Below are positions 6,991 through 22,834 of a DNA stretch of 64,000 nt, piece by piece. Below the pieces are notes generated by a model that saw nothing but the letters and a program-made list of their open reading frames with translations, did no database searches and was not told the origin of the DNA. How positions within the stretch are numbered: position 1 is the stretch's first letter; each line of letters begins with the position of its first letter. This stretch comes from Pediococcus ethanolidurans (lineage in GTDB: Bacteria > Bacillota > Bacilli > Lactobacillales > Lactobacillaceae): the NCBI RefSeq assembly GCF_001437405.1, contig NZ_JQBY01000001.1:62001-126000 (forward strand), given 5' to 3'. The position numbers and the translations under genes are program-made.

Positions 6991-7005
6991 ATTAAGCGCT
7001 TTCAA
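6991..7005 (-). promoter_or_regulatory. cre-like site upstream of the first levR-like gene
   Basis: The minus strand reads TTGAAAGCGCTTAAT, one mismatch from WTGNAANCGNWNNCW. It lies directly upstream of the ribosome site of the activator, suggesting that CcpA limits synthesis of the activator itself. Confidence 0.5.
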
Positions 7006-7151: not shown

Positions 7152-7889
7152 TTAAAATTCATAATGGATCATATCTCGATATTCATTAAATAGTTTCTTG
7201 TTCTTTTCATCTCCACCGTCAAGGTTAGCTGAGTAAAATACTGGTGCATCCCCTTTACCACGATCAGCCAACTGTTGACTTGCTTCCACAATAATTGTGT
7301 TTAGAATAGACGCTCCTATTACTGTTGATGTGGGTCCCACTTTCTGTGGGGCACCCTTTAATTGACAAGCTGCATCACCGATATCACCATGATTATCAAT
7401 CACAACATCGGCAACTTCAAAAAGATGTTTTCCAGAAGAATGACGACTAGCAATTGATTTAGAATATTTCACGTTGGTTAAACCAATTATTTTGACACCT
7501 TGTTTTTTTGCTGCTAATGCAAGATCAATGATAACCGGATTTCGACCCGAAACAGAATGAAGAATCAAAATATCATTTTTCTGAAAATGCACTGTACTTG
7601 CTAATGCTGTTCCATATCCCTCTAGACGTTCCATCTTGCTCGTAAACGTAATAGGTTTACGATCCAACATTACTTCACGTCCAAAAATAGCATTAATTGT
7701 AATCATTCCACCTGCCCGGTAATACATTTCTTCAGAAAGAATTCCTGCATGACTAGCACCAAAAGAATAAATAGAATTTTTTTCAACATTAGCATTCACA
7801 ATCAACTTGATTGCCGCATTAATATTATCTTTTTCGGTTGTCTCTACGATATTCAACAGTTCTCTTACTTTATCAATATATTGATACAA
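7152..7889 (-). CDS. SIS-domain protein of the UPF0309 family
   Basis: About 245 residues with one SIS domain. Motifs include YSFGASHAGILSEEMYYRAGG near the N-terminus, the phosphate loop LHSVSGRNPVIIDLA, and VIGASILNTIIVEA. UPF0309 members bind sugar phosphates and are presumed isomerases; none is assigned a reaction here. GGAGG lies eight bases before the TTG at 7889, which I prefer; an in-frame TTG at 7904 contains that site. The chosen start is one base after the stop of the ascorbate-family IIC gene, so the two are co-translated. The pairing suggests that the PTS product is a phosphosugar isomerised or deglycated by this protein. Confidence 0.8.
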   Translation of the reverse strand: MYQYIDKVRELLNIVETTEKDNINAAIKLIVNANVEKNSIYSFGASHAGILSEEMYYRAGGMITINAIFGREVMLDRKPITFTSKMERLEGYGTALASTVHFQKNDILILHSVSGRNPVIIDLALAAKKQGVKIIGLTNVKYSKSIASRHSSGKHLFEVADVVIDNHGDIGDAACQLKGAPQKVGPTSTVIGASILNTIIVEASQQLADRGKGDAPVFYSANLDGGDEKNKKLFNEYRDMIHYEF

Positions 7890-7890
7890 T

Positions 7891-9162
7891 TTAAAATCCT
7901 CCAATCAATGAAGCGATAAACTTACTAATAATTGCCCATAGAGATAAGTCATTACCACCAAAAATGAGCATCCAATTTTTAATTGTATCGCCCATCATTG
8001 CTGACGAAATTCCTACAAGCGCAATCATAGCAAATGATGCAACTGCAGTACCAATTACTGCGCCACGAATGCCGCCTTGACCCTCACCAACAATTGCAGC
8101 ACCACCACATTCAAAGAAACTAGTAATAACCATTGGCACAATTAAAACACCAAAAATGTTTGTCGTATTAGCTATTAACACTAAAATAGTCGAAGTAACA
8201 AAGGCAGAAATAAATCCGATGATAACTGCATTTGGTTTATAATTAAACAAAATTGGGACATCAAATGCTGGCTTTGCTCCAGGAACCAATTTTTCAGAAA
8301 TACCCTGGAAGGCTGGAATAATTTGATTTACAAGCAAACGTACACCATATAATAAGATGAGCAGGCCACCACCAAAAGTTAAACCGGCATTTAACGCAAC
8401 CATAAATAAATTACCGCCCTTTGGTACCAAAGCTGGAGCAATAAATCCAACAATAATATCAACCAAGAACATTACCATACCACCACTAATAGAGATTTCT
8501 CTAAAAAATGAAAGTCCCTGTGGTACCTTAATATCCTCTGTTGAATGAGCTTTATTACCAACACGTTTAGCTACAAAACCTGAAATCAATGATAAAATTG
8601 TCGTTGGATGTCCGATTAAGAAGGAATCATCCCCAGTTGCTGCCCAGACATACTTTCTCATAACCCAAGGTGCAATTGAAAAGTATAAGGCAGATAAAAT
8701 AGCACTAATAACAATTAATACTGGCCCACGTAATCCACCTTCAACTCCACCAGCTACAATAACAAATGGTACCCACCAAAGCATATGTCCAGTTAGAAAA
8801 ATGGTTTTAATTGGCGTAAAGCGTGCAATTAATAAGTGAATTACTAAGGCCAGAAACATTGCCATTCCCACAGCACCACCATAATCAGCCGTGAAAGTTA
8901 CATCTGACAGGCCTTTAGCAACCCCCACACCCATCTTTACTTGAACAGATGTATTAATTGCAGAAACTACACCAGTCAACATATTGACTCCTTCAGTCAA
9001 TATCACCATCCCAAAGGCTGCCGAAACACTGCCTTTAATTATTTCAGCAATTGGTTTTTTCTGAACAATTAAACCAATCATTGCAATTAGCCCTAGAAGT
9101 ACTGGTGGATCTTGCAAAACGTTATTTAAAATAAAATCCATTATACCTTTTAAAATATCCAT
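7891..9162 (-). CDS. PTS ascorbate-family (UlaA/SgaT) IIC component
   Basis: A 423-residue polytopic membrane protein with ten or so hydrophobic segments. Landmarks are GLIAMIGLIVQKKP and TEGVNMLTGV near the N-terminus, the middle TFTADYGGAVGMAMF, TGHMLWWVPF, and FFECGGAAIVGEGQGGIRG near the C-terminus, all characteristic of the SgaT/UlaA group. Its ATG overlaps the IIB stop by one base (TAATG), with GGAGG upstream. The family is named for ascorbate, but no UlaG lactonase or UlaD/E/F genes are present, so another substrate is likely. Confidence 0.9.
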   Translation of the reverse strand: MDILKGIMDFILNNVLQDPPVLLGLIAMIGLIVQKKPIAEIIKGSVSAAFGMVILTEGVNMLTGVVSAINTSVQVKMGVGVAKGLSDVTFTADYGGAVGMAMFLALVIHLLIARFTPIKTIFLTGHMLWWVPFVIVAGGVEGGLRGPVLIVISAILSALYFSIAPWVMRKYVWAATGDDSFLIGHPTTILSLISGFVAKRVGNKAHSTEDIKVPQGLSFFREISISGGMVMFLVDIIVGFIAPALVPKGGNLFMVALNAGLTFGGGLLILLYGVRLLVNQIIPAFQGISEKLVPGAKPAFDVPILFNYKPNAVIIGFISAFVTSTILVLIANTTNIFGVLIVPMVITSFFECGGAAIVGEGQGGIRGAVIGTAVASFAMIALVGISSAMMGDTIKNWMLIFGGNDLSLWAIISKFIASLIGGF

Positions 9163-9449
9163 TATTTTTCCTCCTGTTCAGCTAAATATTCCTTCAATTT
9201 TTCACCGACTTCATTTTTATCCATATATCTCTTAATTGTATAAACGGGTTTACTAGTTGATTCTTTCAAATCAGGAGCTAATTCAGCACTCGTAAAGTAA
9301 ACATCAGCATCTGTTGCCTTGGCTGATGCAATATCTGTATTCTCCACGGATGCACCAGTAACTCCCAAATCCTTGATCACTTTATCTAAAGTCATTTTAA
9401 GAACCATGGAACTTCCCACACCAAACCCACAAACTGCTAAAATTTTCAT
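9162..9449 (-). CDS. PTS ascorbate-family IIB component
   Basis: A 95-residue cytoplasmic IIB. The phosphocysteine is in ILAVCGFGVGSSMVLK (Cys7), the P-loop of the lactose/ascorbate IIB fold. GGAGG stands seven bases before the ATG. It lies between IIA (two-base gap) and IIC (one-base overlap). It transfers phosphate from IIA to the incoming sugar. Confidence 0.9.
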   Translation of the reverse strand: MKILAVCGFGVGSSMVLKMTLDKVIKDLGVTGASVENTDIASAKATDADVYFTSAELAPDLKESTSKPVYTIKRYMDKNEVGEKLKEYLAEQEEK

Positions 9450-9451
9450 AT

Positions 9452-9889
9452 TTATTCCTCCATTTTGGCGAATAGATTTACTATCTGCTTTTTGTTTCCG
9501 TCTAAGACTGTTTTATAAGATTGATCATCCATAAAAATAGTCATAATTTTTTGAAGACTTTCTAAATGACTGTTATTGTCCACAGCTGCCATAATGAAAA
9601 AGATTTTAACTGGTTTTCCAGCAAGATCAATTGGTTGCTTCGACACAAGTAAACTCATTCCTACCTGATTGACGCCATCCCCTGGACGAGCATGCATTAA
9701 GGCGAAGTAATCTGAAAGTACCATGTACGGACCATTTTCCTTAACACTAGTAATCATGCTTTGAACATAACGATCCGTAATTTTCTTCGATTTTATTAGT
9801 GGCTCACTTGCTTTTTTTACTGCCATTTGCCAATCTGACGCATTGTCTATAACTTGTATATTTTGTTCTGTTAAAAGTTTATTAGCCAC
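9452..9889 (-). CDS. PTS EIIA component, fructose/mannitol fold (UlaC-like)
   Basis: A 145-residue PTS_EIIA_2 domain. The active His is in YFALMHARPGDGVN (about residue 68). The start is a GTG at 9889, ten bases after GGAGG; the ribosome site lies in the end of the regulator gene upstream. It is the first structural gene of the ascorbate-family operon and probably phosphorylates both IIB and the PRDs of the adjacent regulator. Confidence 0.88.
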   Translation of the reverse strand: MANKLLTEQNIQVIDNASDWQMAVKKASEPLIKSKKITDRYVQSMITSVKENGPYMVLSDYFALMHARPGDGVNQVGMSLLVSKQPIDLAGKPVKIFFIMAAVDNNSHLESLQKIMTIFMDDQSYKTVLDGNKKQIVNLFAKMEE

Positions 9890-9891
9890 CG

Positions 9892-11544
9892 TTACCTGAC
9901 CTCCATCATTTTAGAAATAAACCACTCTTTGTTATTTATGCCTTCCATAATTAAATTCATAAAAGGCTCTACAGTTTTCTTGTCTTTATCACGTACCATT
10001 AACAACGAGATAACATCTACCTTGTTGTTTCCCCACTCAATTGGTTTATCCAGAATCAGTACCGAAATAGAACTATTCTTTAACATCTTTGGATCACCAT
10101 GTGGTATCGCAAATCCATTTCCAAGAAATGTCGATTGTAAATTTTCTCGTTGATAAACCGTTTTGCGATATTCGTTTAATGTTTTTTTTGATTCCCACTT
10201 TCTAGTTCTAAGCAAGTAATCAATCGCTTTTTCACGATTTTGCATATTTTCGAAAAAAACATGTCTTTTTAACATTTGAAAAACTTGTTTAATATCAGTG
10301 TGGATAGCTACATTTTTCGGAACATTATTCATCGTTAAATCAATATACTGATTCATAATCGTTTTCATATCTTCTAATGTCATCATTGGTGAGATTTTTG
10401 CAATTGGAACCGAAACATTTTGAAGAGGAACAGTTGTTATAATAAGATCCACATTTGTCAAATCTTGTTTAGCTAACTCCGCTCTAGAAACGACTTCAAT
10501 CATTGAAACGTTAGGTAAAATCTGATGCATTTTTGCAGAAATTAAAGAACTGGTTCCGATTCCATTTGGACAAACAAATAGAATTCTTTTAACATCCTTT
10601 GATCGTTCAATTGCTGCTTGAAAATGAATCGTAACAAAGGCAACTTCATCATCCGAAATTGTTAAATCGTTCACACTACCGAACTCTCTCAATGAGTACC
10701 AAACAACTCCGAATAAATTGGGATAATTTGTTTTGATTTCATTCAATAACGGATTAATAACGGTCATATCAGACTGTAAGCGTAAAATCATTTGATATAA
10801 GTGCAATAACAAATCTGTATTTAACCGTGTATCTTGAGTTAGATCAATACCAATGTCGTATCCGACATTAGCTATAAAGGATTTTACTTTTTTCTTAAAC
10901 AAATCTGGTATAGAAACATTTTGCATAAAAAACTTAAATCCATTACCTAAAACAACATATGAAAGATAGCGTAATTCACTTTGAGAAAACTGATAGATTT
11001 TTTCTTCTTCCACAGCTTTCAATAATTCGTATACTAAAGGATATTTTTCAAACTGAAAAAATAACTTTCCCAGTTGATTTCTCTTCATTTGTTGAATATG
11101 ATGTCCAGAATTCCCGCGTTGAACAAGAACAGCGGTGGTCACAACAATATCTTTCAAATAGTTCTCCGGTACTTCTAACGACCACTGACGAGCCTTTTTC
11201 TTAAGTGTGTGTCGAATTTTTTTCAGTAGTTCTGGATCAATAAACAGTTTCAAAAGAGATTTGTCTGCTTGATCCGTGCTCATCAAATTCGTAACAACCC
11301 GTTTTAAAACCTTCTGCTTATTTCCTTCGCCTCCTCCAATGTACGTTCCAGAATTATCAAAAACTAAAGGAACATTGTCCTTTGCAAGTAACTGCTTGAT
11401 AAATACAATGTCATTAGCAATGCTACTTCTAGATACAAAGTAATCATCAGCTAATCTTTGGTAGCTCAAATGTTCATTATTCAGTAATCTAACTAAAACG
11501 AAATATTTGCGTTTTTTACTTGTCGGAATTTCTTTTGCATTCAA
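9892..11544 (-). CDS. PRD-containing PTS regulator (BglG/MtlR-type) with EIIB and EIIA domains
   Basis: A 550-residue regulator. An N-terminal HTH (residues about 12-50, YQRLADDYFVSRSSIANDI) is followed by PRD-like helical segments, an EIIB-Gat-like domain with Cys in FVCPNGIGTSSLISAK, and a C-terminal EIIA domain with His in FAIPHGDPKML. It should be a DNA-binding activator whose activity is set by PTS phosphorylation, controlling the downstream IIA-IIB-IIC-UPF0309 genes, which start two bases after its stop. AAGGTGA lies upstream of the ATG. A cre-like site and a T-tailed hairpin lie in its leader. It is shorter than the 644-residue relative at 35993-37927, mainly in the PRD region. Confidence 0.85.
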   Translation of the reverse strand: MNAKEIPTSKKRKYFVLVRLLNNEHLSYQRLADDYFVSRSSIANDIVFIKQLLAKDNVPLVFDNSGTYIGGGEGNKQKVLKRVVTNLMSTDQADKSLLKLFIDPELLKKIRHTLKKKARQWSLEVPENYLKDIVVTTAVLVQRGNSGHHIQQMKRNQLGKLFFQFEKYPLVYELLKAVEEEKIYQFSQSELRYLSYVVLGNGFKFFMQNVSIPDLFKKKVKSFIANVGYDIGIDLTQDTRLNTDLLLHLYQMILRLQSDMTVINPLLNEIKTNYPNLFGVVWYSLREFGSVNDLTISDDEVAFVTIHFQAAIERSKDVKRILFVCPNGIGTSSLISAKMHQILPNVSMIEVVSRAELAKQDLTNVDLIITTVPLQNVSVPIAKISPMMTLEDMKTIMNQYIDLTMNNVPKNVAIHTDIKQVFQMLKRHVFFENMQNREKAIDYLLRTRKWESKKTLNEYRKTVYQRENLQSTFLGNGFAIPHGDPKMLKNSSISVLILDKPIEWGNNKVDVISLLMVRDKDKKTVEPFMNLIMEGINNKEWFISKMMEVR

Positions 11545-11729: not shown

Positions 11730-11756
11730 AAAAAAATACAGGTAAAAGTACCTGTA
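11730..11756 (-). terminator. Rho-independent terminator after the tauE-like gene
   Basis: On the minus strand TACAGGTA, a four-base loop and TACCTGTA are followed by seven T. It lies 20 bases after the stop codon of the last gene of the sulfatase operon. Confidence 0.8.
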
Positions 11757-11775
11757 CCGTATTATTGTTATTCTA

Positions 11776-12564
11776 CTAACTAATCCCCATAACCACTTGA
11801 TAACTATTAAATAAATTAATCGAAATAACTAACAAAATTGCCATGCGATATACTAACTCAACTTTTTGAGCATCAACTACATGGCTATATTTGGCACCTA
11901 TTATGCCACCAATAGCTGCTGCTGGAACAATAAATAATAATGTTTTTAAGTCGAAGCTCCAAATCATTCCTGAGAAAATAACAGCCAATATTTTTGAAAA
12001 TTGCGAAAATAGAATGGTAATAATGGAATAAACCGTTGCTTCTTTAATTGGAAAACTACAACAAAGCATTAATAATGCCACATTGATCGGTCCACCACCA
12101 ATTCCAAGTAACGTTGAAATCCATCCTAAGAACATACCAATTAACATTAATAACAACAAATTGGTAATTCTAAAATGCCAATACGGGGCAATGGAATAAC
12201 CCAAAGCAAATAAAAGTGTCAAAATTGTTAGTATTACTTGTATTTGATTAATTATATGGTCGTTTGCTATAACTTGCTCCAACCAATTAAACGTCGTATT
12301 TCCCAACAAGCCACCAATAATTGCTCCAAATGAAATTATAAAAACAAACTTCTTTTTAAGATGAATTCCTAAATTTATTTGTTTATATGTTGATGTGATC
12401 GCCATTGTAAAGACTGCTACACTACTAAAAAAGTTTATTTGTATTAATGGATGGGCCCCGATGACATCTAGAATTGGTTTGATGATGACACCTCCGCCCA
12501 TCCCCGCAATAGCACCAATTACATTGGCAAAGAAGATGACTAATGCATACGTGATATAGATCAT
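11776..12564 (-). CDS. TauE/SafE-family membrane permease (putative sulfite/sulfate exporter)
   Basis: A 262-residue protein with about eight hydrophobic segments. It has the family's paired glycine-rich motifs: GAIAGMGGGVIIKPIL near the N-terminus and STLLGIGGGPINVALL in the second half. TauE/SafE proteins are linked to export of sulfite, sulfoacetate or other small acids. As the last gene of an operon with a sulfatase and its maturase, a role in removing released sulfate is a natural inference, not shown. The ATG at 12564 follows AAGGAGG by six bases; the GTG just before it is less well spaced. It starts 17 bases after the EIIA gene. Confidence 0.85.
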   Translation of the reverse strand: MIYITYALVIFFANVIGAIAGMGGGVIIKPILDVIGAHPLIQINFFSSVAVFTMAITSTYKQINLGIHLKKKFVFIISFGAIIGGLLGNTTFNWLEQVIANDHIINQIQVILTILTLLFALGYSIAPYWHFRITNLLLLMLIGMFLGWISTLLGIGGGPINVALLMLCCSFPIKEATVYSIITILFSQFSKILAVIFSGMIWSFDLKTLLFIVPAAAIGGIIGAKYSHVVDAQKVELVYRMAILLVISINLFNSYQVVMGIS

Positions 12565-12581
12565 CACAAACCTCCTTTGAA

Positions 12582-13058
12582 TTAACTTAATGTGGCTACT
12601 TTATTTCCGGCCTTAATTAATCCAGTCTGAAGATCAAGTTTTTTCCCTAAATCTGTGAAATTAGTAATGGCAATAATAATTACTGGATTCAGATCAGCTT
12701 TCTTAACTGCATTAAGATCAATGCTTACTAATGGCGTCCCTGCTTGTACTTTTTCGTTCAAATTGACTTTTACATCAAATGGCTCACCTTTTAAATTTAC
12801 CGTATCAATTCCCATATGAATGATTAATTCCACACCAGTATCACTGGTTAATCCAATTCCATGTTTAGTGTCTGCAATGAACGTCACTTTACCTGTTACT
12901 GGAGCAACAATTTCACCATTAGTTGGATTAACAGCAAATCCATCGCCCATCATCTTACCGGCAAATACTTCGTCTGGTACTTGCGTAATCGGAATTACAT
13001 CTCCCTCAACTGGTGACACAATTTCAATCGTTTCTTTTTTCTTTGAAAACCAACCCAT
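12582..13058 (-). CDS. PTS glucose-family EIIA (Crr-like), single-domain
   Basis: A 158-residue EIIA-Glc domain. The active His is in GVELIIHMGIDTV (His81) and the supporting His in TKHGIGL (His66); the N-terminal SPVEGDVIPITQVPD is typical. It stands alone as a cytoplasmic protein and supplies the IIA function missing from the IIBC protein at 15514-16947. AGAGG lies before the ATG. It is the fourth gene of the sulfatase operon, 15 bases after the FGE gene. Confidence 0.92.
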   Translation of the reverse strand: MGWFSKKKETIEIVSPVEGDVIPITQVPDEVFAGKMMGDGFAVNPTNGEIVAPVTGKVTFIADTKHGIGLTSDTGVELIIHMGIDTVNLKGEPFDVKVNLNEKVQAGTPLVSIDLNAVKKADLNPVIIIAITNFTDLGKKLDLQTGLIKAGNKVATLS

Positions 13059-13073
13059 TTTATTACCTCTCTT

Positions 13074-13961
13074 TTAGATATCCTTAACTACTCTAAATCC
13101 AAGATTAGAACTAGCTGAATCACTGACTTCACCATTTCTTGCACCAACTCGATATCTATTACAAAAACTACAATGACATAAGAATGACCCCCCACGAATT
13201 GCCATTTGATGTGGTTCATGAACTTTTAAGGTTTCCTGCCAAAACTCCTGACTTTGATGATCAGTAAAACTTGATAAAGGTATACCGCGCGAATTACTGC
13301 ACCATTCCCAGACGTTACCAATCATTTGATACAGACCGAAGTCGTTAGGTTGAAAACTTTTTACAGGAGCTGTTCCTAAATAACCATCTTCTAACGAATT
13401 CTCACTTGGAAAATTACCCTGCCAGGTATTAGCATGAAATTCGTGATTCTTAGTCAGATTATTACCCCATGGATATTTAAGACCAACTTTGCCACCGCGT
13501 GCGGCCTTTTCCCATTCAGCTTCGGTTGGTAAGCGATATCCTGCCCATACACAATAAGCAATTGCATCATTTAACGATACCTGGGTTACTGGATAATCTA
13601 ATCGGTTTGAAACACTACTTTGTGGACCTTCTGGATGATTCCAACAAGCTCCTTTAACAGCACGCCACCATGGCATATCTTTTGTAGCTTTAGTTTTTTC
13701 TAGCTCTTCTTGATCAAGAAGTTTGAAAAAAACATATGACCAGCCAAGCTTTTCGGCCTGTGTTTCATACCCAGTTTCATCTACAAACTCTTTAAATTCA
13801 CGAATTGTAACGGTTGTCGTACTAATTTGATAAGTAGCTAATTCAACGCTAGTAATCGGTCCTTCCCTATCTACCGGAAAACCTATTTGATCGTTAGTTC
13901 CCATATCGAACCTTCCACCAGATATCATCTTAAATTCTGTTTTATCCTTTACTTTCAACAT
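13074..13961 (-). CDS. Formylglycine-generating enzyme (sulfatase-modifying factor, SUMF1 family)
   Basis: A 295-residue FGE-sulfatase domain protein with no signal peptide. It follows the family from [20 protein letters not shown] through [15 protein letters not shown] (143-157), [14 protein letters not shown] (215-223) and [20 protein letters not shown] to NLGFRVV. The two copper-binding active-site cysteines of known FGEs correspond to Cys262 and Cys267 (CHCSFC); an extra Cys264 lies between them. The enzyme oxidises the sulfatase Cys to formylglycine using oxygen. It lies 34 bases downstream of a Cys-type sulfatase, its obvious client, and both proteins are cytosolic. FGE genes are unusual in lactic acid bacteria as far as I know. 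Confidence 0.9.
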
Positions 13962-13995
13962 AATTCTGTCTCAATTCCTTCCTTGCACCATAAAG

Positions 13996-15486
13996 TCACT
14001 TAAGTCCCAGTCTGATAAATTCTTCTTTTGGTGCTTCAATTTTTTTTAATAATTTGGTCAGTTTTTCAACCATAATTTCTTCAATTGCTTCATCATGCAA
14101 AGGATGTTCTTGATTCGGATCCTTAACAATATCAAACAAATAGTTTCCTAAAGCGTAAGAGTCCATATGATTACGTAAAGATAATTTACCCACAGTCATT
14201 CCTTGAGTAAATCGATTACCTTTTACTAATTCAAGGCTCTTCATATCTTCCGGACTGTAAAATCCACGCATCTTTGTAAAAGCCAATGTATAATTCACTA
14301 ATGGCTCATTATCTGGATTTTGTGAAGCGCGCATATAAACATATTTGCCATCATAGACACAGGCAAAACTACCATTTACACCAAATAGAATGTCACGTTC
14401 CTTAACATGTTTTTCATTACTCTTAGCTGCTTCATCAAGGACTTTTAAAATTGATTGCCCATCACGAACGGTATCATCGTGAATATTAAAGTAATCTAGC
14501 AATGTTTCTGGTAAATCAATTGTCTGGGCAATTTGGCCACAAATACTTCCGTCCCGTTCCGGATGCGATGGATCATGAATAAAGAATGGCAAATGAACTA
14601 ATTCGTCATAAACAGGAGAAATATTTTTTCCAATCCAATTGTGTTCACCTAGTAAAAAGCCATGATCAGTGTTCACGATTACCAAGGTATCTTTCCACAT
14701 ATCATTTTGATCTAGAACATCTAGAATTTTTCCTAGATAGTGATCGCACATAGTTATCAGAGCTGCGTACTCTTTTTTAAGGTCCTCAATGTCATCTTTA
14801 AATCGATCATCCACTAATTTTTGATAAGTTGGCCAATATGGAATATCTTCTGACTTAATACAGTCGTATATCTGACGGTACTTATCCGGTACATAAAATG
14901 GTTCATGGGGGTCAAATGACTCAATTTGAAGAAACCAATCTTTTTTGTCCCGATTTTTTTCTAGAAAATCAATTCCTGCGTTAATAGTTTGAACACTGGA
15001 AATATCCTTTTCATCATTAATTCTTGTAATATTCGCCATATGTTGTTCAACCGAAACGCCTTTTTTATTTAAGGCATTCTGGTTCTGATTAACTTCACCT
15101 TCCATTCGAGGAATCCATCGATCTCCTTCTTGTCCGCGGAAGCCTTCCCAACTAGAATAACGTGGCAAATACGTTGCTCCACCATCTTCCCAGTAGTGAG
15201 AATGATCAGTTACGATATGTGCATAGACACCGTTGTTCTTTAATTTTTCAATTGCTGATTGATCAAAAACCTCTAGTGGTCCCCACGATCTAAATGGGAA
15301 ATTATACATTCCCGTGTGCAATTCTCGTCTGGCTGGGATACAAGGTAAACTCCCACCATAAAAATTATCGAACGTAATCATTTTTTTCTGAAGACGTTGA
15401 AAATTTGGAGTTTTTATCCATTCATTACCAAAATTGGACAGAAACCTTTTTGATAAAGTATCAAACATAATCATAATGGCTCGCAT
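13996..15486 (-). CDS. Cytosolic Cys-type sulfatase (formylglycine-dependent)
   Basis: A 496-residue alkaline-phosphatase-fold sulfatase. The signature C-x-P-x-R is at CIPARRELHTG (Cys49), so Cys49 is the residue for formylglycine conversion. Metal ligands are visible as Asp9 near the N-terminus (MIMFDT) and NTDHGFLLGEHNWIGK in the middle; DHSHYWEDGGATY is a further substrate-side motif. There is no signal peptide or lipobox, so the enzyme acts in the cytoplasm, after transport. GAGGGAG precedes the ATG. It sits between the PTS IIBC (27-base gap) and the FGE gene. The likely substrate is a sulfated sugar or glycoside brought in, and phosphorylated, by that PTS. Family placement is firm; the substrate is unknown. 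Confidence 0.92.
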   Translation of the reverse strand: MRAIMIMFDTLSKRFLSNFGNEWIKTPNFQRLQKKMITFDNFYGGSLPCIPARRELHTGMYNFPFRSWGPLEVFDQSAIEKLKNNGVYAHIVTDHSHYWEDGGATYLPRYSSWEGFRGQEGDRWIPRMEGEVNQNQNALNKKGVSVEQHMANITRINDEKDISSVQTINAGIDFLEKNRDKKDWFLQIESFDPHEPFYVPDKYRQIYDCIKSEDIPYWPTYQKLVDDRFKDDIEDLKKEYAALITMCDHYLGKILDVLDQNDMWKDTLVIVNTDHGFLLGEHNWIGKNISPVYDELVHLPFFIHDPSHPERDGSICGQIAQTIDLPETLLDYFNIHDDTVRDGQSILKVLDEAAKSNEKHVKERDILFGVNGSFACVYDGKYVYMRASQNPDNEPLVNYTLAFTKMRGFYSPEDMKSLELVKGNRFTQGMTVGKLSLRNHMDSYALGNYLFDIVKDPNQEHPLHDEAIEEIMVEKLTKLLKKIEAPKEEFIRLGLK

Positions 15487-15513
15487 ACTAACTCTCCCTC
15501 TCTTTAAAACTTG

Positions 15514-16947
15514 TTATGCATAATGACGCATCTTGCCAACGACATACGTCAAAATAAAACCAGCAGCACATGCTACAGCATAAGCGATTAAATACTGAAT
15601 ATATTTACCATCTGCAATTAATGGAATAGCCGACATACCGGCAGCACCGAGAGCGGAACACTTAACACCCAGCAAACTAACCATCATGCCACCGAAACCA
15701 GCTCCAATTGATGCGGTAATAAAACCAAAACCTGAAGGGATAACTAATCCAAATAATGTAGGTTCACCAACTGCTAAAAATGTCGCAGGCAACGCAGCTT
15801 TAGCCACATTTCTAACTTGTTGATTTTTGGACATAATCCAAAGTGCAAGTCCCGCACCAACTAAACCAGCATTACTCATAATTTGAAATGCATTAATTTG
15901 TGTTGATCCATGTTGAGCAATAAGTTGTAAATTAATTGGTGTTAATCCTTGATGCAAACCAGTTGAAATGAGTGCGGGTGCTAATGCTGACAATACAAAA
16001 CCACCGACAACACCGGATTCATTAATTAGGAATAAAATGCCTTTAATTAATCCATCTGACAAAATACCCATTATTGGCATTACTGTTAGAAAATACACAA
16101 TTGCCGTCAGAAGTAAGGAAAAGGTTGGTGTTAAAACAACATCTAAAATATCAGGAATAATTTTATGAAATAATTTCATAAATTCTGCTAAAATCCAAAC
16201 ACCCAAAATAACTCCAAACAGTCCACCTTCTCCAGCCTTAAGCCCTAGGACTGGTAAAGCTGTTGATAACGTAATGGCACCAATTGCTCCACCCAGTAAT
16301 TTATCAGTTTTGAATTGAATGGCTGAAGTTACTCCAACATAAATGGCTAAAAAGCTAAAAACAGCTGTGCCGATGATGCCGAAAACCGTACTAACTTGAA
16401 GTAAGTGCCAACTTTGAAGTACTACTTGTGTGTTGGTTAGTTGACCAGAAGCTTTCACACCTTCTCTAATAGCTGTGTTTGTAGCATTACTAGTCATAAT
16501 GTTATTAATACCTTGCACAAAACCAGAAGCAATAATTGCTGGAATAACTGGAACAAAGATATTGGATAAGGTGGTTAAAAAGACCTTCATCCTGCCACTG
16601 GTATGACTTCTTGCTTTCGTTTTTGTTTCCTGAATCGTTTGATCCATTGACTGATTTTGATCCTGCGAGTTTGTTTCTTCTTGTGCACCTGCATCATATT
16701 CACAACCCAAAATTTCAATAATAGCTTCATGAATTTTGGTGCTTTTCCCTGGTCCAACGACAATTTGAAATGTATCAGCATCATTGATTCCGAGAACTCC
16801 AGGTACCCTTTTTAATTCTTCAATTTGAATAAGATCTTTATTTTTAAACTTAATTCTTAGACGTGTCATACAATTTTCAACACTAATAAAATTATCTTTA
16901 CCTCCACAAAGGTCAATAATTTTATTTGCCACTTCTGCATTATTCAT
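15514..16947 (-). CDS. PTS glucose-superfamily IIBC transporter (MurP/sucrose-like)
   Basis: A 477-residue protein: an N-terminal EIIB domain with phosphocysteine in SVENCMTRLRIKF (Cys26), a charged Gln/Thr-rich linker (about 90-130), and an EIIC domain of about ten membrane segments with the late motif PTLFGLVIPSGFGF. No IIA domain is attached; the EIIA at 12582-13058 fits that role. The architecture, with an RpiR regulator opposite, recalls the N-acetylmuramate transporter MurP, but there is no murQ here. The ATG at 16947 has GGGAGG nine bases upstream. It is the first gene of the sulfatase operon, so its substrate should be the sulfated compound. It is preceded by a TATACT -10 element and a cre-like site. 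Confidence 0.9.
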   Translation of the reverse strand: MNNAEVANKIIDLCGGKDNFISVENCMTRLRIKFKNKDLIQIEELKRVPGVLGINDADTFQIVVGPGKSTKIHEAIIEILGCEYDAGAQEETNSQDQNQSMDQTIQETKTKARSHTSGRMKVFLTTLSNIFVPVIPAIIASGFVQGINNIMTSNATNTAIREGVKASGQLTNTQVVLQSWHLLQVSTVFGIIGTAVFSFLAIYVGVTSAIQFKTDKLLGGAIGAITLSTALPVLGLKAGEGGLFGVILGVWILAEFMKLFHKIIPDILDVVLTPTFSLLLTAIVYFLTVMPIMGILSDGLIKGILFLINESGVVGGFVLSALAPALISTGLHQGLTPINLQLIAQHGSTQINAFQIMSNAGLVGAGLALWIMSKNQQVRNVAKAALPATFLAVGEPTLFGLVIPSGFGFITASIGAGFGGMMVSLLGVKCSALGAAGMSAIPLIADGKYIQYLIAYAVACAAGFILTYVVGKMRHYA

Positions 16948-16981
16948 AATGTTGCCTCCCAAATATGTTAGTGGTCGGTTC

Positions 16982-17016
16982 TAAAAGCGCTTTCAGAAAT
17001 CCACATTCATAGTATA
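16982..17016 (-). promoter_or_regulatory. Promoter -10 and cre-like site of the sulfatase operon
   Basis: A TATACT -10 hexamer lies at 17011-17016; no good -35 is seen at the usual distance, which fits an activator or a weak promoter. Downstream the minus strand reads TGAAAGCGCTTTTA (16982-16995), one mismatch from the cre consensus, placed to act as a roadblock. Confidence 0.5.
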
Positions 17017-17064
17017 CGGTATTTATTCGCACTTTTATTACAATTATTTCTGTTTGGGAATTTT

Positions 17065-17089
17065 ACCATTTCTTTGGCAATGAAATGGT
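17065..17089. promoter_or_regulatory. Inverted repeat overlapping the rpiR promoter (candidate operator)
   Basis: Perfect eight-base arms ACCATTTC and GAAATGGT are separated by nine bases. The spacer contains TTGGCA (17074-17079), which with AATACA at 17097-17102 (17-base spacing) forms a plausible promoter for the RpiR gene. A dimeric RpiR protein could bind here. Position and symmetry only. Confidence 0.45.
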
Positions 17090-17105
17090 TTCCAACAATA
17101 CAAAA

Positions 17106-17132
17106 AACGTTTATGCTGAGAACATAAACGTT
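17106..17132. promoter_or_regulatory. Perfect inverted repeat upstream of rpiR-type gene (candidate operator)
   Basis: Ten-base perfect arms AACGTTTATG and CATAAACGTT are separated by seven bases, 27 bases before the regulator start. There is no T-run after it, so it reads as a protein-binding site more than a terminator. It lies just downstream of the candidate rpiR promoter, as an autoregulatory operator would. Confidence 0.5.
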
Positions 17133-17158
17133 ACTTGTGTATATAAGAGGTGAATTTA

Positions 17159-17929
17159 ATGAATAAAACAATCGAAGAATTAATCAAGAAAAACGAAACC
17201 AATTTTTCTAATGTTGACAAACAGATTGCTAAATATGTGTTGGTTAATCAAGAAAAAGTGTGTGCTATGAGTATTAACAACCTTGCAGAGGCAGCATTTG
17301 TATCAACTTCTTCAGTATTGAGATTTGCACAAAAGTTAGGGTTTCACGGATTTTCCGACTTTAAGTATTTTTTATCTTGGAATGAAAATACTAAAAAAGT
17401 TCAAGAAAACTTGAATTCAAAAATGATTGGAAATGGCGTAACTCAGATGATCGCAACGCTAAGTGAACCAACAGTTACAACGACTGTTCAATACTTTAAA
17501 AGTGCGCGACGAATCTTTATCTTAGCAACCGGACTAAATCAACAGTATCAGGCTAGAGATCTTCAACAACGGTTTCTTCAGTTAGGAATTAGCATGGTTT
17601 TATTGCCTTCAAACAGTGGTAGTATCTTGAACAAACAAATTGCAGAAAGTGTAACTTCAGATGATTTACTAATTATATTCTCATCGTCAGGTGAGAATTC
17701 AGTCGTCAAGGACTTTCTTAAGTTGCCAACGCTTATTCAAACTCCAATTATTTCATTTACAAATAGTTTAGATAGTTGGCTATCTACTCATTCTAATTGT
17801 GTTTACTCACTATCTCATTTACAAAACAGTTCACAGTTGGAACCTTATTTTTCCGGATTTTTTCATCTACTGATTGATTTCCTAGCAGTACGATTCAAAT
17901 CGGAAAATTCTGAACGCGTTGACAAATAG
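17159..17929 (+). CDS. RpiR/MurR-family transcriptional regulator of the sulfatase-PTS locus
   Basis: A 256-residue regulator. The N-terminal HTH_6 domain (residues about 1-75, MSINNLAEAAFVSTSSVLRFAQKLGFHGFSDFK in pieces) is followed by a SIS domain (about 110-230) with IFILATGLNQQ and the ligand loop IIFSSSGENSVVKDF. SIS domains of this family bind sugar phosphates, so the inducer may be the phosphorylated transport product. The ATG at 17159 follows AGAGGTG; a GTG nine bases earlier sits on that site. It is divergent from the IIBC-sulfatase operon, the standard arrangement for a local regulator. Confidence 0.9.
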   Translation: MNKTIEELIKKNETNFSNVDKQIAKYVLVNQEKVCAMSINNLAEAAFVSTSSVLRFAQKLGFHGFSDFKYFLSWNENTKKVQENLNSKMIGNGVTQMIATLSEPTVTTTVQYFKSARRIFILATGLNQQYQARDLQQRFLQLGISMVLLPSNSGSILNKQIAESVTSDDLLIIFSSSGENSVVKDFLKLPTLIQTPIISFTNSLDSWLSTHSNCVYSLSHLQNSSQLEPYFSGFFHLLIDFLAVRFKSENSERVDK

Positions 17930-18122
17930 TTGTTCATTTATGTACATTTCTTACGACATACGTTTTCGAACTATTTATAAAGAACACCTTTCGAGTAAAA
18001 TAATATAGTTGATGGTTAATTAGAATTCGACTCTATCATAAACTTCTAATTTAAAACGCAAATATTGTAATTTCTCCAACTAATCATTAAATACTTCGCA
18101 CTTTCAATATAAAACTTCGGGG

Positions 18123-18208: not shown

Positions 18209-19000
18209 GTGGATACGATACATTTGGAGAAACTAAACGAATTGCAGGAAGTTATCGAAAGAAGAACCATTAGCCGATTTGAGCAAATCGCAGATATGGC
18301 CCAAACAATCGATAAGACAGACATTTGCGAAGAGACAACCTTTTATATCCATGACACTTCGCATTGGAGTACAGAGTACAATAGTATTGTTTTTGATGCC
18401 CATCGAGGTATTCATAAAACCAAGAAAACAACGAAGGCTCTAATCAATAGATACGCGCGATCAAAAGAGGCAAACTTTTTATTAATGCAAGCCATGGGAA
18501 GACAACTTTCAGTTAACAATAGCTGGCCTTATGTGTTAGGCAACACACAGTTTGCACCAACTAGTGGACCAAGCAAGGAGTACACAAACTGGATTGCAGT
18601 TCACCATTTAAAAGATATTTACCCAGATCCAAAAGATGAAAATCGTTTATTTTTAATTTTCAATGGTGGTTATCGACTCAATGTTCGAATTGACTTTAAG
18701 GATTTTTATCGCAAACTTGTGACCGTGCGTAAATATTATGATTTTCAACAAGATTTCGCTAGATACCTTGCTGGTCAGTTCAATTCTGAAGTCAGAATTG
18801 TGCCAAGTGATAATTATCTTGATACACGCATTCCACGGTCACCTGATTCACCAAGATCAGAGTATCAAAATTGTCGTGAAATTCTTATTCGCATTGCTCA
18901 TCAGGTCTTTCGTACAATGAATCCAGAAGATCATCACTTTGACATTCTTGACATGGAAGATGTTTATAATGACACACTGAAGGACAAAGCTTTGTTGTAA
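18209..19000 (+). CDS. ComK-like protein (putative competence transcription factor family)
   Basis: A 263-residue soluble protein without signal peptide. The central part (about 110-190) resembles ComK: WPYVLGNTQFAPTSGPSKEYTNWIAVHHLKDI aligns by eye with the ComK segment in which a phase of conserved Pro/Ser residues precedes GWISHVHVKEF, followed by FNGGYRLNV and a Tyr-rich helix. It is longer than Bacillus ComK (192 residues), with extra N-terminal helix and C-terminal tail. The start is a GTG at 18209, nine bases after AAGGAG. It is a single-gene unit with its own promoter and terminator. A DNA-binding role is inferred; the target is unknown, and the family call is moderate. Confidence 0.55.
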   Translation: MDTIHLEKLNELQEVIERRTISRFEQIADMAQTIDKTDICEETTFYIHDTSHWSTEYNSIVFDAHRGIHKTKKTTKALINRYARSKEANFLLMQAMGRQLSVNNSWPYVLGNTQFAPTSGPSKEYTNWIAVHHLKDIYPDPKDENRLFLIFNGGYRLNVRIDFKDFYRKLVTVRKYYDFQQDFARYLAGQFNSEVRIVPSDNYLDTRIPRSPDSPRSEYQNCREILIRIAHQVFRTMNPEDHHFDILDMEDVYNDTLKDKALL

Positions 19001-19983: not shown

Positions 19984-20156
19984 GATTTCTCCTTTATTTT
20001 CTACTCAACTATTAATTTTACTATAGTTTTTGTATATTTTTGCTATTTATAAAAATTCATTAAAAGTACTTAGGCTTTCGATAACACTTATATGATAGTA
20101 CATAAGTTATGGCTAATGAATCATGAGGTGTCCCAATTACTGGTGAATCGATCAGA

Positions 20157-20194
20157 TTTTTGCTGTCGTTGATTGGCAGCGATAAGGCTATCTA
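20157..20194. repeat. hsdS recombination repeat, C-terminal type (copy 1)
   Basis: A 38-base perfect inverted match with 21695-21732. The inner 25 bases (20168-20192) also match 22894-22918 in the expressed hsdS, in direct orientation, and a shorter part matches 21109-21131. It encodes DSLIAANQ. A further imperfect match outside the repeat (20113-20128 with 21751-21767) shows the symmetry extends to the flanks. Confidence 0.9.
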
Positions 20195-20633
20195 GTTTAG
20201 TTAAAAGTTCTCCAACTTTACGTTGCTCTTGAATAACTGGTAAGCAAATAGGCGTTTTTAATATATCTTTATTATATAATCGCTTAATTGTGCTTCCTTC
20301 TAAACCCGGCCACTTTACTACTTTGTAGAATTGTCTTAAGAAAGAATTTTCCACCTCATCGGAATGTTTTAGCCATACAATATTTGAATCTTGAAAATAT
20401 GCTTCTTCTCCTTTATATTCGACAGTTCTACCTATACTTCCTGATGCAGATATCAAAGTATCCCCAATCTCTGGATAAGAAAATTTTTTTCTGTATTCAT
20501 TAAATAACTTTCTGGGGATATATGAATCTGCTTTTTTTCCAAAAGTCCCAATTTTATAAAAAGGTATATCCCCACTGGAAGCCGTTTGATCTTTAAAGAT
20601 TCGCTTATTCATTGATACTGCTCCTATATCTCC

Positions 20634-20653
20634 TAACTTACGCTGTTCCCAAG
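20634..20653. repeat. hsdS recombination repeat, N-terminal type (copy 1)
   Basis: A 20-base stretch identical to 23954-23973 in the expressed hsdS, and an 18-base perfect inverted match to 20703-20720. It encodes WEQRKL. A related copy lies at 21221-21239 and a diverged one near 23375-23395. Confidence 0.9.
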
Positions 20654-20702
20654 TGTACTTTGACAAAAGTTCAATATTTTATCCTTGATTCTCAGGTAAC
20701 GT

Positions 20703-21759
20703 TTGGGAACAGCGTAAGTTCAAAACAGTTGTAAAAGTTAATTCAGGTAAAGATTATAAGAGCTTAAATCATGGTACTGTTCCTGTTTATGGCACAGGAG
20801 GATATATGCTAAGTGTCGATAAGTGGTTATCCGATCAAAATGGAGTGGGAATTGGCAGAAAGGGTACTATTGATTCGCCACAATTACTAGAAGCTCCATT
20901 TTGGACCGTTGATACTTTATTTTATTTAATCCCTGATCCTGGTTTCGCATTACTTTTTATTTATTCATTTTGTCAATTGGTTAACTGGAAGAAACTTGAT
21001 GAATCCACTGGAGTGCCAAGTCTATCAAAAAAAACAATTGAGGCCTTAAAAATTAACATACCCTGTAAGACGGAACAGCAGAAGATTGGAGCAATTTTTG
21101 CCAAACTTGATAGCCTTATCGCTGCCAATCAGAGTAAGTTAGAAGAACTAAAAACAGTGAAAAAGCTTGCTATGCAAAAGGTTTTTGACCAAGAATGGCG
21201 ATTCCGGGGGTTCACTGACCCTTGGGAACAGCGTAAATTGGGAGATGTTGTTGATTGGTCCAGAGGTGAAGGCCTTTCTAAGAAATATTTGAATACAAAG
21301 AAGAACGGAATTCCAGCTATTCATTATGCTGACTTATATAAATTTGGACCAATCATGCGTCAGACGTTACATTTCACTAACTCACATACTGGCAAGGTTT
21401 TAAAAGAAGGTGATCTGCTTTTTCCAATGTCAGATGTTACGCCTAAGGGCTTGGCAAGAGTTGTGTCAGTGATAACTAATGGAATTCTTGCTGGTGGAGA
21501 TATTTTAATTGCTTCTCCTCAAAAAGACTTTGGCTCATTTTTGTCTTATGAAATAAATAAAAATAAAGGGCAAATACTAAGATATGTAACAGGAACAACA
21601 ATTCGTCATATTAACGCCAACTCATTATCGAAGTTGATAGTCCATGGTACCAAGAAAGCAGAAGAATTAGAAATTTCTAAATTGTTAATTTCCATAGATA
21701 GCCTTATCGCTGCCAATCAACGACAGCAAAAAAAGCCATGGATTCGTGGTCCTCCATGA
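20703..21759 (+). pseudogene. hsdS: Silent inverted hsdS cassette (two target-recognition domains)
   Basis: Reading in frame from WEQRKF at about 20704, this holds a first recognition domain (GTGGYMLSVDKWLSDQNG), the central conserved region (KLDSLIAANQSKLEELKTVKK, then FTDPWEQRKLGDVV) and a second domain ending at DSLIAANQRQQK. The N-terminal segment found in the expressed hsdS (MSEKIQPKVRFSGFTDA) is missing, so there is no proper start; the first ATG at 20806 is inside the domain. It lies opposite to the expressed gene, the arrangement needed for swapping by inversion. It ends 15 bases before the recombinase stop codon. Confidence 0.88.
21695..21732. repeat. hsdS recombination repeat, C-terminal type (copy 2, inverted)
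   Basis: The perfect 38-base inverted partner of 20157-20194. Relative to the expressed hsdS copy (22894-22918) it is inverted over 25 bases. An inversion between these two would flip 21.7-22.9 kb, including the recombinase gene. Confidence 0.9.
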
Positions 21760-21774
21760 CTCATTAGTATTATC

Positions 21775-22692
21775 TTATATCAAGCTTGCCAAATGCTTCA
21801 TCACTTTATCATTATCTTGGTTTTCTAGTTCTTGAATAATATGCAAGTATGTTTGTTGTGTTGTTGTCATATTTGAATGGCCTAATCGTCTTGCCACCGA
21901 CGCAATACTAACACCTGCATACAACAATAATGACGCATGTGTATGCCGCAATCCATGTATTGATATGACTGGAATTTTAGCTTTTTTACACAGTCTTTCG
22001 AGATAATGATTTACCGTGTCGTTATAGACTTTTGATTGTACAAAAATAGGTTTGTCTTCTGGCAGATTTTTCGTTAATTGTGAAAACTGTATAACCGTTT
22101 GCCAGTCTAATTGTACTTTACGAACTGATGATTTGTTCTTTGTTGGTGCAAAACCAGACTTTACAGACTTGTAATCCCAGGTTTTATTTATATTTAGATA
22201 TTGATGTGCAAAGTCAAAATCCTTTGGTGTGACTGCCAATGCTTCCGCAAAACGCAAACCAGTCTTCGTAATTAATAGAATGAAATAATCCCAGTTAACA
22301 CCTTCGTCTAACACCAAAATATTTAATAAATCTTGAACTTCATGCTGGCTCAAAAATTTTATTTTGTGTTTTCGGTGTTGAACACCTTTAATAATGGCTT
22401 TACGTGTTGGATCACGATCAATTAAACCTTCTTCGAGTGCATCTATCAGTGCACTTTTGATGTGTCGATGAAAATCCATAACTGTTTGACGTTCATGTGT
22501 TTCAGCATAGTCGTTTAACAGTTGTTGGTAGGTTAAACGTGACAAGTCAGACATAATTAGATCTGGTACAAGTCCAATTAGCTGTCTATGTGTCATCTCA
22601 TATTTTCGGTAAGTTACCGGTCGTACCGCATCTAGCTTATATAATTTCATCCATTGGTGAAAATATTTGTGCAATTTTAGTTCTTGTGTCAT
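21775..22692 (-). CDS. Tyrosine recombinase of the hsdS inversion system
   Basis: A 305-residue XerC/D-like integrase. An N-terminal SAM-like core-binding domain (about 1-100) precedes the catalytic domain, with the first Arg in TKTGLRFAEALAV, HGLRHTHASLLLYAG (His-x-x-Arg), RRLGHSNMTTTQQTYLH (His and nucleophile Tyr). GGAGGTG lies seven bases before the ATG. It is located between silent and expressed hsdS alleles, the usual position of the PsrA/CreX-type recombinases that shuffle type I specificity genes. No phage genes or att sites accompany it, so a prophage integrase is less likely. Confidence 0.9.
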   Translation of the reverse strand: MTQELKLHKYFHQWMKLYKLDAVRPVTYRKYEMTHRQLIGLVPDLIMSDLSRLTYQQLLNDYAETHERQTVMDFHRHIKSALIDALEEGLIDRDPTRKAIIKGVQHRKHKIKFLSQHEVQDLLNILVLDEGVNWDYFILLITKTGLRFAEALAVTPKDFDFAHQYLNINKTWDYKSVKSGFAPTKNKSSVRKVQLDWQTVIQFSQLTKNLPEDKPIFVQSKVYNDTVNHYLERLCKKAKIPVISIHGLRHTHASLLLYAGVSIASVARRLGHSNMTTTQQTYLHIIQELENQDNDKVMKHLASLI

Positions 22693-22834
22693 AACGACAC
22701 CTCCATATGAATATTTAGGAAAATAATCCCCTATCTATTCATACAGATTTATGCACATATTTACTAGGTTTAATGCAAAAATATTTTTTCTGCTTTCGCT
22801 CATCCGCTGCGTAATCACGGATATATTGATAATT

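Follow-up and report, generated by a model that had tools for sequence, protein, structure and literature searches.

A six-gene cassette of Pediococcus ethanolidurans with a predicted role in phosphotransferase uptake and cytosolic desulfation of a sulfated sugar

The bacterial sulfatases of sulfated glycans that have been studied work for the most part outside the cytosol. An intracellular route is reportedly used by Bifidobacterium breve, whose ats gene clusters are said to desulfate an imported sulfated sugar inside the cell, like the cassette proposed here, and to differ from it in anSME maturation, non-PTS transport and the substrate GlcNAc-6-sulfate. Uptake of sulfated sugars through the phosphotransferase system (PTS) was proposed in 2012 for a Lac-type island of Streptococcus pneumoniae (available passages of PMC3302838), namely SPH1922-SPH1930 (PMC3302838; PMC3283741). 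According to the same partial sources, sulfatase activity from this island was not seen with 4-methylumbelliferyl sulfate as substrate, growth defects did not appear in the media that were tried (PMC3283741), and arrays revealed no phenotype (PMC3302838). For lactobacilli, a model from 2018, as outlined in the accessible part of PMC6045597, has heparin disaccharides imported by a PTS and desulfated in the cytoplasm. The pneumococcal proposal (PMC3302838) and the heparin model (PMC6045597) both precede the present work, and they correct the remark in an earlier note on this DNA that its author knew of no described pathway of this form in lactobacilli. A lactobacillus operon of the make-up reported below did not turn up in our literature search, which is weak evidence, with the subscription literature mostly outside the search; the accessible passages of PMC6109692 mention no such operon.

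The locus lies in the window, the whole 64,000-nucleotide stretch of Pediococcus ethanolidurans DNA that was analysed. According to the ORF list, five co-directional genes on the reverse strand encode a PTS EIIBC of the Glc superfamily (15514..16962), a cytosolic Cys-type S1 sulfatase (13996..15486), a formylglycine-generating enzyme of the aerobic type (FGE; 13074..13961), an EIIA of the Glc (Crr) type (12582..13058) and a TauE/SafE-type permease (11776..12567). Opposite them, on the forward strand, stands the gene of an RpiR/MurR-family regulator with a phosphosugar-sensing SIS domain (17150..17929). The intergenic gaps are 14, 15, 34 and 27 bp, in order from TauE to IIBC, and the divergent spacer between IIBC and RpiR measures 187 bp. 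All six ORFs have Pfam matches exceeding the gathering score: PF01925 for the permease (101.7 bits, cut-off 32.6), PF00358 for EIIA (162.9 bits), PF03781 for FGE (239.2 bits), PF00884 for the sulfatase (107.6 bits), PF02378 and PF00367 for EIIBC, and PF01418 and PF01380 for the regulator. Sulfate (or sulfite) export by the permease is a prediction from this family match; the TauE family transports varied substrates.

Several candidate signals frame these genes. Immediately upstream of IIBC, a motif scan detected a cre-like palindrome with one mismatch (16982..16995), which would suggest carbon catabolite control; it is weak evidence alone, because the whole window holds nine matches at eight places at this stringency, and the corresponding site in the sister cassette described below differs by one base, raising the mismatches to two. 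An inverted repeat with 16-nt arms and a 7-nt spacer (17100..17138) is a candidate RpiR operator, present in the sister cassette too and not found in the spacers of two related loci, L037 and L040. Directly downstream of tauE, a terminator-like hairpin on the reverse strand (11735..11758) is likely to mark the operon end, in a region where the hairpin search gave 7 sites against a mean of 3.9 in shuffles.

The PTS components carry the residues needed to assign them. EIIBC combines EIIC and EIIB domains with the Cys motif NCMTRLR, and EIIA has the phospho-His motif HMGIDTV, in agreement with NCxTRLR and HxGIDTV, which we take to be the phosphorylation-site motifs of Glc-superfamily PTS. The best NCBIfam match of EIIBC, to the sucrose IIBC model (TIGR01996), falls below the cut-off (254.9 versus 559.3 bits), and the protein is also under the cut-offs of the beta-glucoside, trehalose and MurNAc models. 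At E ≤ 1e-100, the EIIBC query matched one of 398 genomes of its own class, the window's own, and the carrier is therefore rare in that draw. Elsewhere in the window, at 57831-60798, a GH1 gene adjoins another PTS.

The sulfatase has the maturation motif C-x-P-x-R, as CIPAR at residue 49, and C49, P51 and R53 are kept in all 78 aligned sulfatases. Positions D9, C49, R53, H95, H194, D274, H275 and K287 are invariant in the sulfatase alignments, and we assume metal or catalytic roles for all of these but C49 from conventional numbering and from structure alignments that covered the N-terminal and C-terminal parts and left out H95. The AlphaFold model built from 60 sequences has a pLDDT of 92.1, compared with 70.6 and poor active-site loops for an earlier model built from 17. 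Its closest structure is the S1_25 sulfatase 6hr5 (Z 32.9, 347 residues, 2.7 Å). Only 8 residues precede the catalytic D9 (8 to 11 across the 28 PTS-linked sequences, the window's among them), which leaves no room for a signal peptide and rules out an exported sulfatase. Similarly, the Pfam match of FGE begins 11 residues after the protein start, and a signal peptide is excluded there by length as well. A second Cys-type sulfatase in the available genome (96.5% complete, 66 contigs) was ruled out, since its three other PF00884 matches, from frames 862, 720 and 722 residues long, lack CxPxR.

FGE aligns with the solved enzyme 5nxl over residues 12-294 (E 5e-80) and also with 6s07 and 1y1e, and its active-site cysteine pair is matched, the counterpart segment in a solved FGE being LCHESYCNRYR. 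Conversion of Cys to formylglycine by FGE needs O2 and copper. No match to the anSME model TIGR03942 was found in the host genome, and the cassette FGE is the only PF03781 match there; within this 96.5% complete assembly, another maturase is thus ruled out, and with no anSME detected, maturation of the sulfatase should need O2. On these points, what the earlier note read from the locus stands: five tight same-strand genes facing RpiR, all recovered with gaps of 14-34 bp; IIBC and EIIA split within one operon layout, with Pfam domains and Cys/His motifs in agreement; a Cys-type CIPAR motif holding C49; FGE adjacent to the sulfatase, 34 bp away and with both cysteines matched; and no signal peptide on either enzyme, their 8 and 11 leading residues being too few. 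Its contrast between FGE here and anSME as the usual maturase holds for the window's genome, where FGE is alone, and is softer in general, with FGE and anSME occurring together at 11 of the 28 PTS-linked loci.

A search for the synteny, as the note had suggested, showed that the block recurs in a sister species, with comparable sets in many related bacteria, among them Mesoplasma photuris, and on an Enterococcus faecium plasmid. Positions 11778-17944 align at 91.2% DNA identity to a 20-kb stretch of the sister genome, the flanks differ, and the remaining five matches are short (47-483 bases). Because the block is shared and the flanks are not, the six genes travel together, and judged from its DNA the cassette is a compact, mobile unit. 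The sulfatase is carried by 2 of 12 genus members and is hence dispensable. In Mesoplasma photuris, sulfatase, FGE, EIIABC and TauE follow in a single run, which is the same core set; the plasmid order is EIIABC-sulfatase-hydrolase-TauE-FGE. No paper combining Mesoplasma and sulfatase was found in our search, again with subscription literature mostly outside it. In viral contigs, no relative was confirmed by a protein scan, and megablast of window positions 1-22000 against plasmids gave no match. Positions 22000-46900 matched 132 records; the 10 that were listed are restriction specificity genes.

We then placed the sulfatase in a tree of 83 rows: 97 loci (L036-L132) minus nine without an ORF labelled sulfatase (L084, L092, L094, L096, L101, L105, L121, L123, L127), minus six others (L046, a fragment; L054 and L055, on the same contigs as L042 and L044; L069, broken up under code 11; L089 and L103, for their length), plus the window. 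In 29 rows, a PTS gene lies no more than 4.5 kb from the sulfatase, and 54 have no PTS link. Neighbours were labelled by phmmer with single reference proteins within that distance, so that distant relatives (TauE above all) and farther PTS genes would be missed in these counts, which are also not independent, since the near-copies L043/L045 and L060/L062 remain in the set. The window's branch (SH-aLRT 99) has 26 members, 24 of them PTS-linked, with Glc- and Lac-type systems; the sulfatases linked to Man-type PTS form a separate branch (97), and an ascorbate-type PTS lies beside L142, bringing the PTS superfamilies that adjoin related sulfatases to four. With the block in the sister species, the 24 of 26 indicate that the pairing exceeds chance. 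Setting aside the window itself and two very long branches (L074, L124), TauE is near 11 of 28 PTS-linked sulfatases versus none of 52 others, and any maturase near 21 of 28 versus 13 of 52. Such partners also occur away from PTS loci: the MFS-linked sulfatase L144, added later, has TauE and anSME adjacent. Among seven Lac-type EIIC proteins checked with NCBIfam (L061 and L062 left out), the lactose/cellobiose family was best in all seven; L063, L066 and L067 passed the TIGR00410 cut-off, and L057, L059, L060 and L064 missed it. In three of five Man-type loci, lacA and lacB adjoin the sulfatase, which points to galactose 6-phosphate as the product there.

Four residues set the window's branch apart. 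R123, K141 and S145 are present in all 24 of its PTS-linked members and H149 in 23, while D149 is found in all 50 non-PTS relatives outside the branch (the comparison leaves out L058, L068, L074 and L124 and holds L131 separate from the 24). All three Glc-type sequences checked later (L135, L141, L069) also hold the signature. It represents four of 14 positions satisfying one criterion; none of the remaining ten is basic, and D342 among them is an acidic gain. The mean net charge of residues 110-155 is higher in the PTS classes, with overlapping ranges. PTS linkage does not always come with the signature, which may reflect branch inheritance, since L131 (with a GH4 gene) and L142 (ascorbate-type PTS) keep D149 and the Man-type enzymes have P123, Y141, L145 and Y149. 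L058 (RKAH) and L068 (RKSN) belong to the branch and have no PTS gene within 4.5 kb. The signature, with H149 in place of D149, would be as expected for an already phosphorylated substrate. A wider proposal, which we hold to be possible rather than probable, is that a class of cytosolic sulfatases is specialised on sulfated, PTS-phosphorylated sugars through a basic pocket (R123, K141, S145, H149) replacing an ancestral Asp for a free hydroxyl, that the family was repeatedly joined with PTS carriers of four superfamilies across Bacillota, even in Mesoplasma, and that hosts with FGE only, this lactobacillus included, use the sugar under an O2 gate.

Taken together, these data make it quite probable that the cassette is a mobile catabolic unit for a sulfated sugar, with PTS uptake and phosphorylation, cytosolic desulfation and sulfate export. 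EIIA and EIIBC would import the sugar with concomitant phosphorylation, most likely of O6, yielding a cytosolic phospho-sulfo-sugar. FGE would turn C49 of the sulfatase into formylglycine, and the matured enzyme would cut the sulfate ester from the phosphorylated sugar to leave an ordinary sugar 6-phosphate, the freed sulfate being expelled by the permease. RpiR would detect a phosphorylated sugar through its SIS domain and control the divergent operon. The earlier note had outlined such a pathway, and it remains the best-supported reading, given the block transfer, the four PTS superfamilies, TauE at 11 of 28 versus 0 of 52 loci and the basic signature; the idea itself is not new. Hexose PTS normally phosphorylates O6, which makes free GlcNAc-6-sulfate an unlikely substrate. 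Because GH1 and GH4 genes are missing from the neighbourhood of most PTS-linked loci, the likeliest substrate would be a monosaccharide whose sulfate is not on O6; galactose or an amino sugar sulfated at O3 or O4 would be examples.

GH1 or GH4 does lie within 4.5 kb of 4 of the 28 PTS-linked sulfatases, with L066 a fifth at 4,569 bases, and this speaks for a sulfated glycoside as substrate, whether a disaccharide (for instance a glycosaminoglycan fragment), a glucosinolate or the sulfate of an aryl beta-glucoside; one of its rings would be phosphorylated by the PTS, the other part desulfated and the product split by a glycosidase encoded elsewhere. The sucrose, beta-glucoside, trehalose and MurNAc carriers nearest to EIIBC are consistent with it, as are the window's GH1 gene beside the other PTS (57831-60798), the PTS import of heparin disaccharides with cytoplasmic desulfation in the lactobacillus model (accessible part of PMC6045597), and the metabolism of glucosinolates by lactobacilli and enterococci, with desulfation suggested, in the passages available from PMC6767122. 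We nevertheless consider a glycoside unlikely: 24 of the 28 loci lack a GH1/GH4 match within 4.5 kb, in a screen confined to these two glycosidase families, and neither family is labelled in the Mesoplasma, L135 and L141 stretches.

The best sequence matches of the enzyme among solved structures, to phosphonate monoester hydrolases and to sulfatases of the same group, speak for its acting in vivo not as a sulfatase but as a phosphonate monoester hydrolase or phosphodiesterase of the sulfatase superfamily. The fold does not decide the matter, because the Z-scores differ by only about 2, with the S1 sulfatase closest (32.9 versus 30.8 for 2w8s); the co-occurrence of TauE and an NF045661 match of 137.5 against a cut-off of 900 make this activity very improbable. 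We give hardly any credence to a chance neighbourhood, in which the sugar taken up by the PTS carries no sulfate and the sulfatase serves housekeeping or scavenging. Transport of a sulfated sugar by EIIBC is a prediction, and 54 of the 83 tree rows have no PTS link, but the six genes were transferred as a block and the linkage extends across four PTS superfamilies.

If the desulfation pathway is correct, Gram-positive fermenters using the PTS route would secure the sugar for themselves, with the sugar trapped by phosphorylation ahead of desulfation. Sulfatases acting on phospho-sulfo-sugars would be defined, TauE beside sulfatases would be explained, and a lactic acid bacterium would offer a simple test of O2 dependence.

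Compared with described systems, as far as the accessible passages of the sources go, the pneumococcal island is similar in that one operon, with a divergent sugar regulator, holds PTS and TauE genes together with those of a sulfatase and a sulfatase-modifying enzyme. By description, its PTS is of the Lac type with two EIIC genes, and it also has a ComA-like enzyme and a regulator of the ROK family, whereas the cassette has Glc-type IIBC and EIIA with RpiR. The heparin cluster of Lactobacillus rhamnosus/casei shares the lactobacillus host, PTS import of a sulfated sugar and cytosolic processing before or after a sulfatase step (legend in PMC6045597); Man-type EIIA-D, heparin lyase, unsaturated glucuronyl hydrolase and a disaccharide substrate are its own, and the available passages name no sulfatase gene in the cluster. 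In the streptococcal hyaluronan PTS locus, a host glycan fragment is likewise imported and phosphorylated by a PTS before cytosolic processing, with an unsaturated glucuronyl hydrolase in place of the sulfatase and a Man-type PTS (parts of PMC9067506 and PMC3302838). The chondroitin operon of Proteus vulgaris, a Gram-negative, also brings putative sulfatase and PTS genes together, alongside chondroitin lyases and a glucuronyl hydrolase (part of PMC9067506). The cassette makes the 2012 pneumococcal proposal testable in organisms that are harmless; it differs in make-up from the proposed pneumococcal and heparin systems and shares their general idea.

All six genes of the cassette were found as open reading frames at the positions that the earlier note had read from the sequence. 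On the minus strand, starting from the RpiR end, the operon runs IIBC, sulfatase, FGE, EIIA, and TauE with gaps of 27, 34, 15, and 14 bp; the divergent rpiR gene lies beyond a 187-bp spacer. Each of the six proteins passes the Pfam gathering score for its named family, and the catalytic motifs of the sulfatase and FGE as well as the phosphorylation motifs of EIIB and EIIA are in place. Solved FGEs align to that of the window over residues 12-294 with both cysteines matched. IIBC sits amid sucrose, beta-glucoside, trehalose, and MurNAc carriers, below the cut-off for every one. A terminator-like hairpin lies 3' of tauE. The spacer contains a cre-like palindrome, present with one base different in the sister cassette of another genome (L036), and an inverted repeat, shared with the sister spacer, which could be the RpiR operator. 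Since the two spacers are 94% alike, the recurrence of both elements says little; the inverted repeat was not found in the spacers of L037 and L040, two other loci around related sulfatases.

The sulfatase is present in 2 of the 12 genomes of the genus searched, including that of the window. Compared with the 20-kb stretch of the other carrier, window positions 11778-17944 align at 91.2% identity, from the tauE end to just beyond the rpiR end. Five further matches of 47-483 bases concern a ComK-like gene (18209-19000) as well as fragments at 16523 and 59260. Since the flanks differ and the edges are sharp at the outer genes, the six genes are handled as a set by transfer or selection; they constitute a single mobile unit. 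ComK-like genes adjoin the cassette on opposite sides in the two genomes (window 18209-19000, L036 4686-6487), and may mark a site of integration or rearrangement. A second PTS operon at 7152-11544, comprising IIC (7891-9162), IIB, IIA, a PRD regulator, and a SIS_2 protein, also adjoins the cassette; we take it as unrelated because no DNA match to it was found beside the sister cassette.

Across the order, 55 of 395 genomes match the sulfatase in some way. Sixteen full-length relatives (36-59% identity) were examined with 14-20 kb of surroundings, and the best 80 of 573 confirmed loci were taken from a scan of named genomes. In a tree of 83 sulfatases, the neighbors within 4.5 kb include a Glc-type PTS in 17 cases, a Lac-type EIIC in eight, and a Man-type PTS in four, and the other 54 have no PTS gene of these types within that distance. 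The branch holding the window's sulfatase has 26 rows (SH-aLRT 99), all PTS-linked except L058 and L068. The Man-type sulfatases form a separate branch (support 97), and the PTS-linked L131 of Amphibacillus sediminis lies outside both. The lactose/cellobiose family scored best for all seven Lac-type EIIC proteins checked, over the cut-off in three, and an ascorbate-type PTS accompanies the sulfatase of L142, in a genome that is probably Streptococcus. Among the matches listed, carriers of the branch include Enterococcus ratti, Listeria aquatica, Paenibacillus massiliensis, and Lachnospira pectinoschiza. In Mesoplasma photuris (genetic code 4), sulfatase, FGE, an EII protein that fuses the A, B, and C domains, and TauE stand in a row, the same core parts as in the window. 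Genes for EIIABC, sulfatase, TauE, and FGE also occur together on a conjugative Enterococcus faecium plasmid, where an alpha/beta hydrolase (L135 10585-11859) stands between sulfatase and TauE, a place held by anSME in several relatives. L046 (8742-10496) is a decaying copy: an in-frame stop interrupts this related sulfatase, and neither a PTS nor a maturase was labelled within 4.5 kb of it.

In counts drawn from related sequences, on which p-values overstate independence, TauE is near 11 of 28 PTS-linked sulfatases versus 0 of 52 others, anSME near 19 versus 4, FGE near 13 versus 9, and at least one maturase near 21 versus 13; both maturases occur together near 11 of the 28. Two MFS-linked sulfatases examined after the counts are adjoined by TauE and anSME (L144, 7127-10875) and by anSME (L145), the former representing the same idea without a PTS. 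The window's genome (96.5% complete, 66 contigs) gave one FGE match and no anSME match. FGE requires oxygen, so desulfation in this host should be oxygen-dependent.

With regard to the substrate, no GH1 or GH4 gene was found within 4.5 kb at 24 of the 28 PTS-linked loci, and a fifth GH1 lies just past that limit at L066. Within a screen of these two families, this rarity favors a monosaccharide. Since lacA and lacB adjoin three of five Man-type loci (L049, L052, and L143), the substrate there is probably a galactose sulfate and its product galactose 6-phosphate. At L049, lacB and lacC score above all NCBIfam cut-offs and lacA above two of three; the labels at L052 and L143 come from phmmer. 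No lacA/lacB-type gene is linked to the window's cassette. Its genome has a LacB-like gene (241 bits, cut-off 312.55), a second weak match (49 bits) 0.4 kb away, and three NagA matches above cut-off, so the host could use either galactose phosphate or amino-sugar phosphate.

Other features of the window include a Man-type PTS (1682-4194) within 602-7005, alongside genes for a SIS-domain protein and for a DagR-like regulator (4273-7005; 463 bits, short of the 1400 cut-off). A 530-aa ORF (45518-47110) fuses Man-family IIC and IID, which looks unusual; it has a SIS-type protein (44438-45514) on one side and NagA (48019-49167) on the other. The KxYKxGKxW signal, leucine-rich repeats, and MucBP repeats of a 1630-aa surface protein (52767-57659) suggest that it adheres to mucin-like surfaces. 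The region 20121-28641 looks like a phase-variable system: besides a type I restriction specificity gene (22835-24022), both strands hold more specificity-like ORFs, and an ORF at 21775-22692 was read by eye as integrase-like.

We aligned 24 PTS-linked members of the window's branch, four Man-type enzymes, and 50 non-PTS sulfatases from outside the branch. Fourteen positions are conserved within the branch and rare outside; four, including the three basic residues, fall in one stretch of the window's sulfatase (R123, K141, S145, and H149). The first three are found in 24/24 members and H149 in 23/24 (Asn in L063), while position 149 is Asp in all 50 non-PTS enzymes and Tyr in the four Man-type enzymes and L143. 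Basic residues gained and an invariant acid lost are what a switch from free hydroxyl to phosphate would look like. Three Glc-type enzymes outside the defining set, L135, L141, and L069 of Mesoplasma, all carry R, K, S, and H. However, L142 and L131 retain Asp at 149 although PTS-linked, whereas L058 and L068 carry most of the signature with no PTS gene nearby. The other ten positions are non-basic, and at one of them (D342) an acidic residue was gained; the signature may also reflect plain inheritance within the branch. The AlphaFold model of the sulfatase is confident (mean pLDDT 92.1) and most similar to S1 sulfatases, phosphonate monoester hydrolases following closely. That there is a class of sulfatases specialised on substrates carrying phosphate is somewhat less likely than not, the positions that do not fit counting slightly against it.

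Taken together, uptake and phosphorylation by the PTS followed by desulfation in the cytosol is the likely pathway. In the passages concerned, a 2012 survey of pneumococcal transporters proposed operon SPH1922-SPH1930 for sulphated-sugar uptake, with sulphite removed and then exported via TauE, and the mutant showed no phenotype in arrays (PMC3302838). As described in part of a parallel study, the pneumococcal island alters fitness in mice, with no sulfatase activity on an artificial substrate and unchanged growth (PMC3283741). The relevant passages of a 2018 lactobacillus model have heparin disaccharides entering by PTS; their cleavage in the cytoplasm either precedes or follows sulfatase desulfation, with no sulfatase gene named there (PMC6045597). 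A review passage cites sulfatase and PTS genes that share an operon in Proteus (PMC9067506). The passages of these four papers mention no Glc-type lactobacillus version, block transfer, recurrence with four PTS superfamilies, Mesoplasma copy, dual maturases, or residue signature. The pathway put forward in the earlier note is supported in outline, but that outline is not original to it (PMC3302838, PMC6045597): judging from these passages, a system of this kind is already known, as a proposal.
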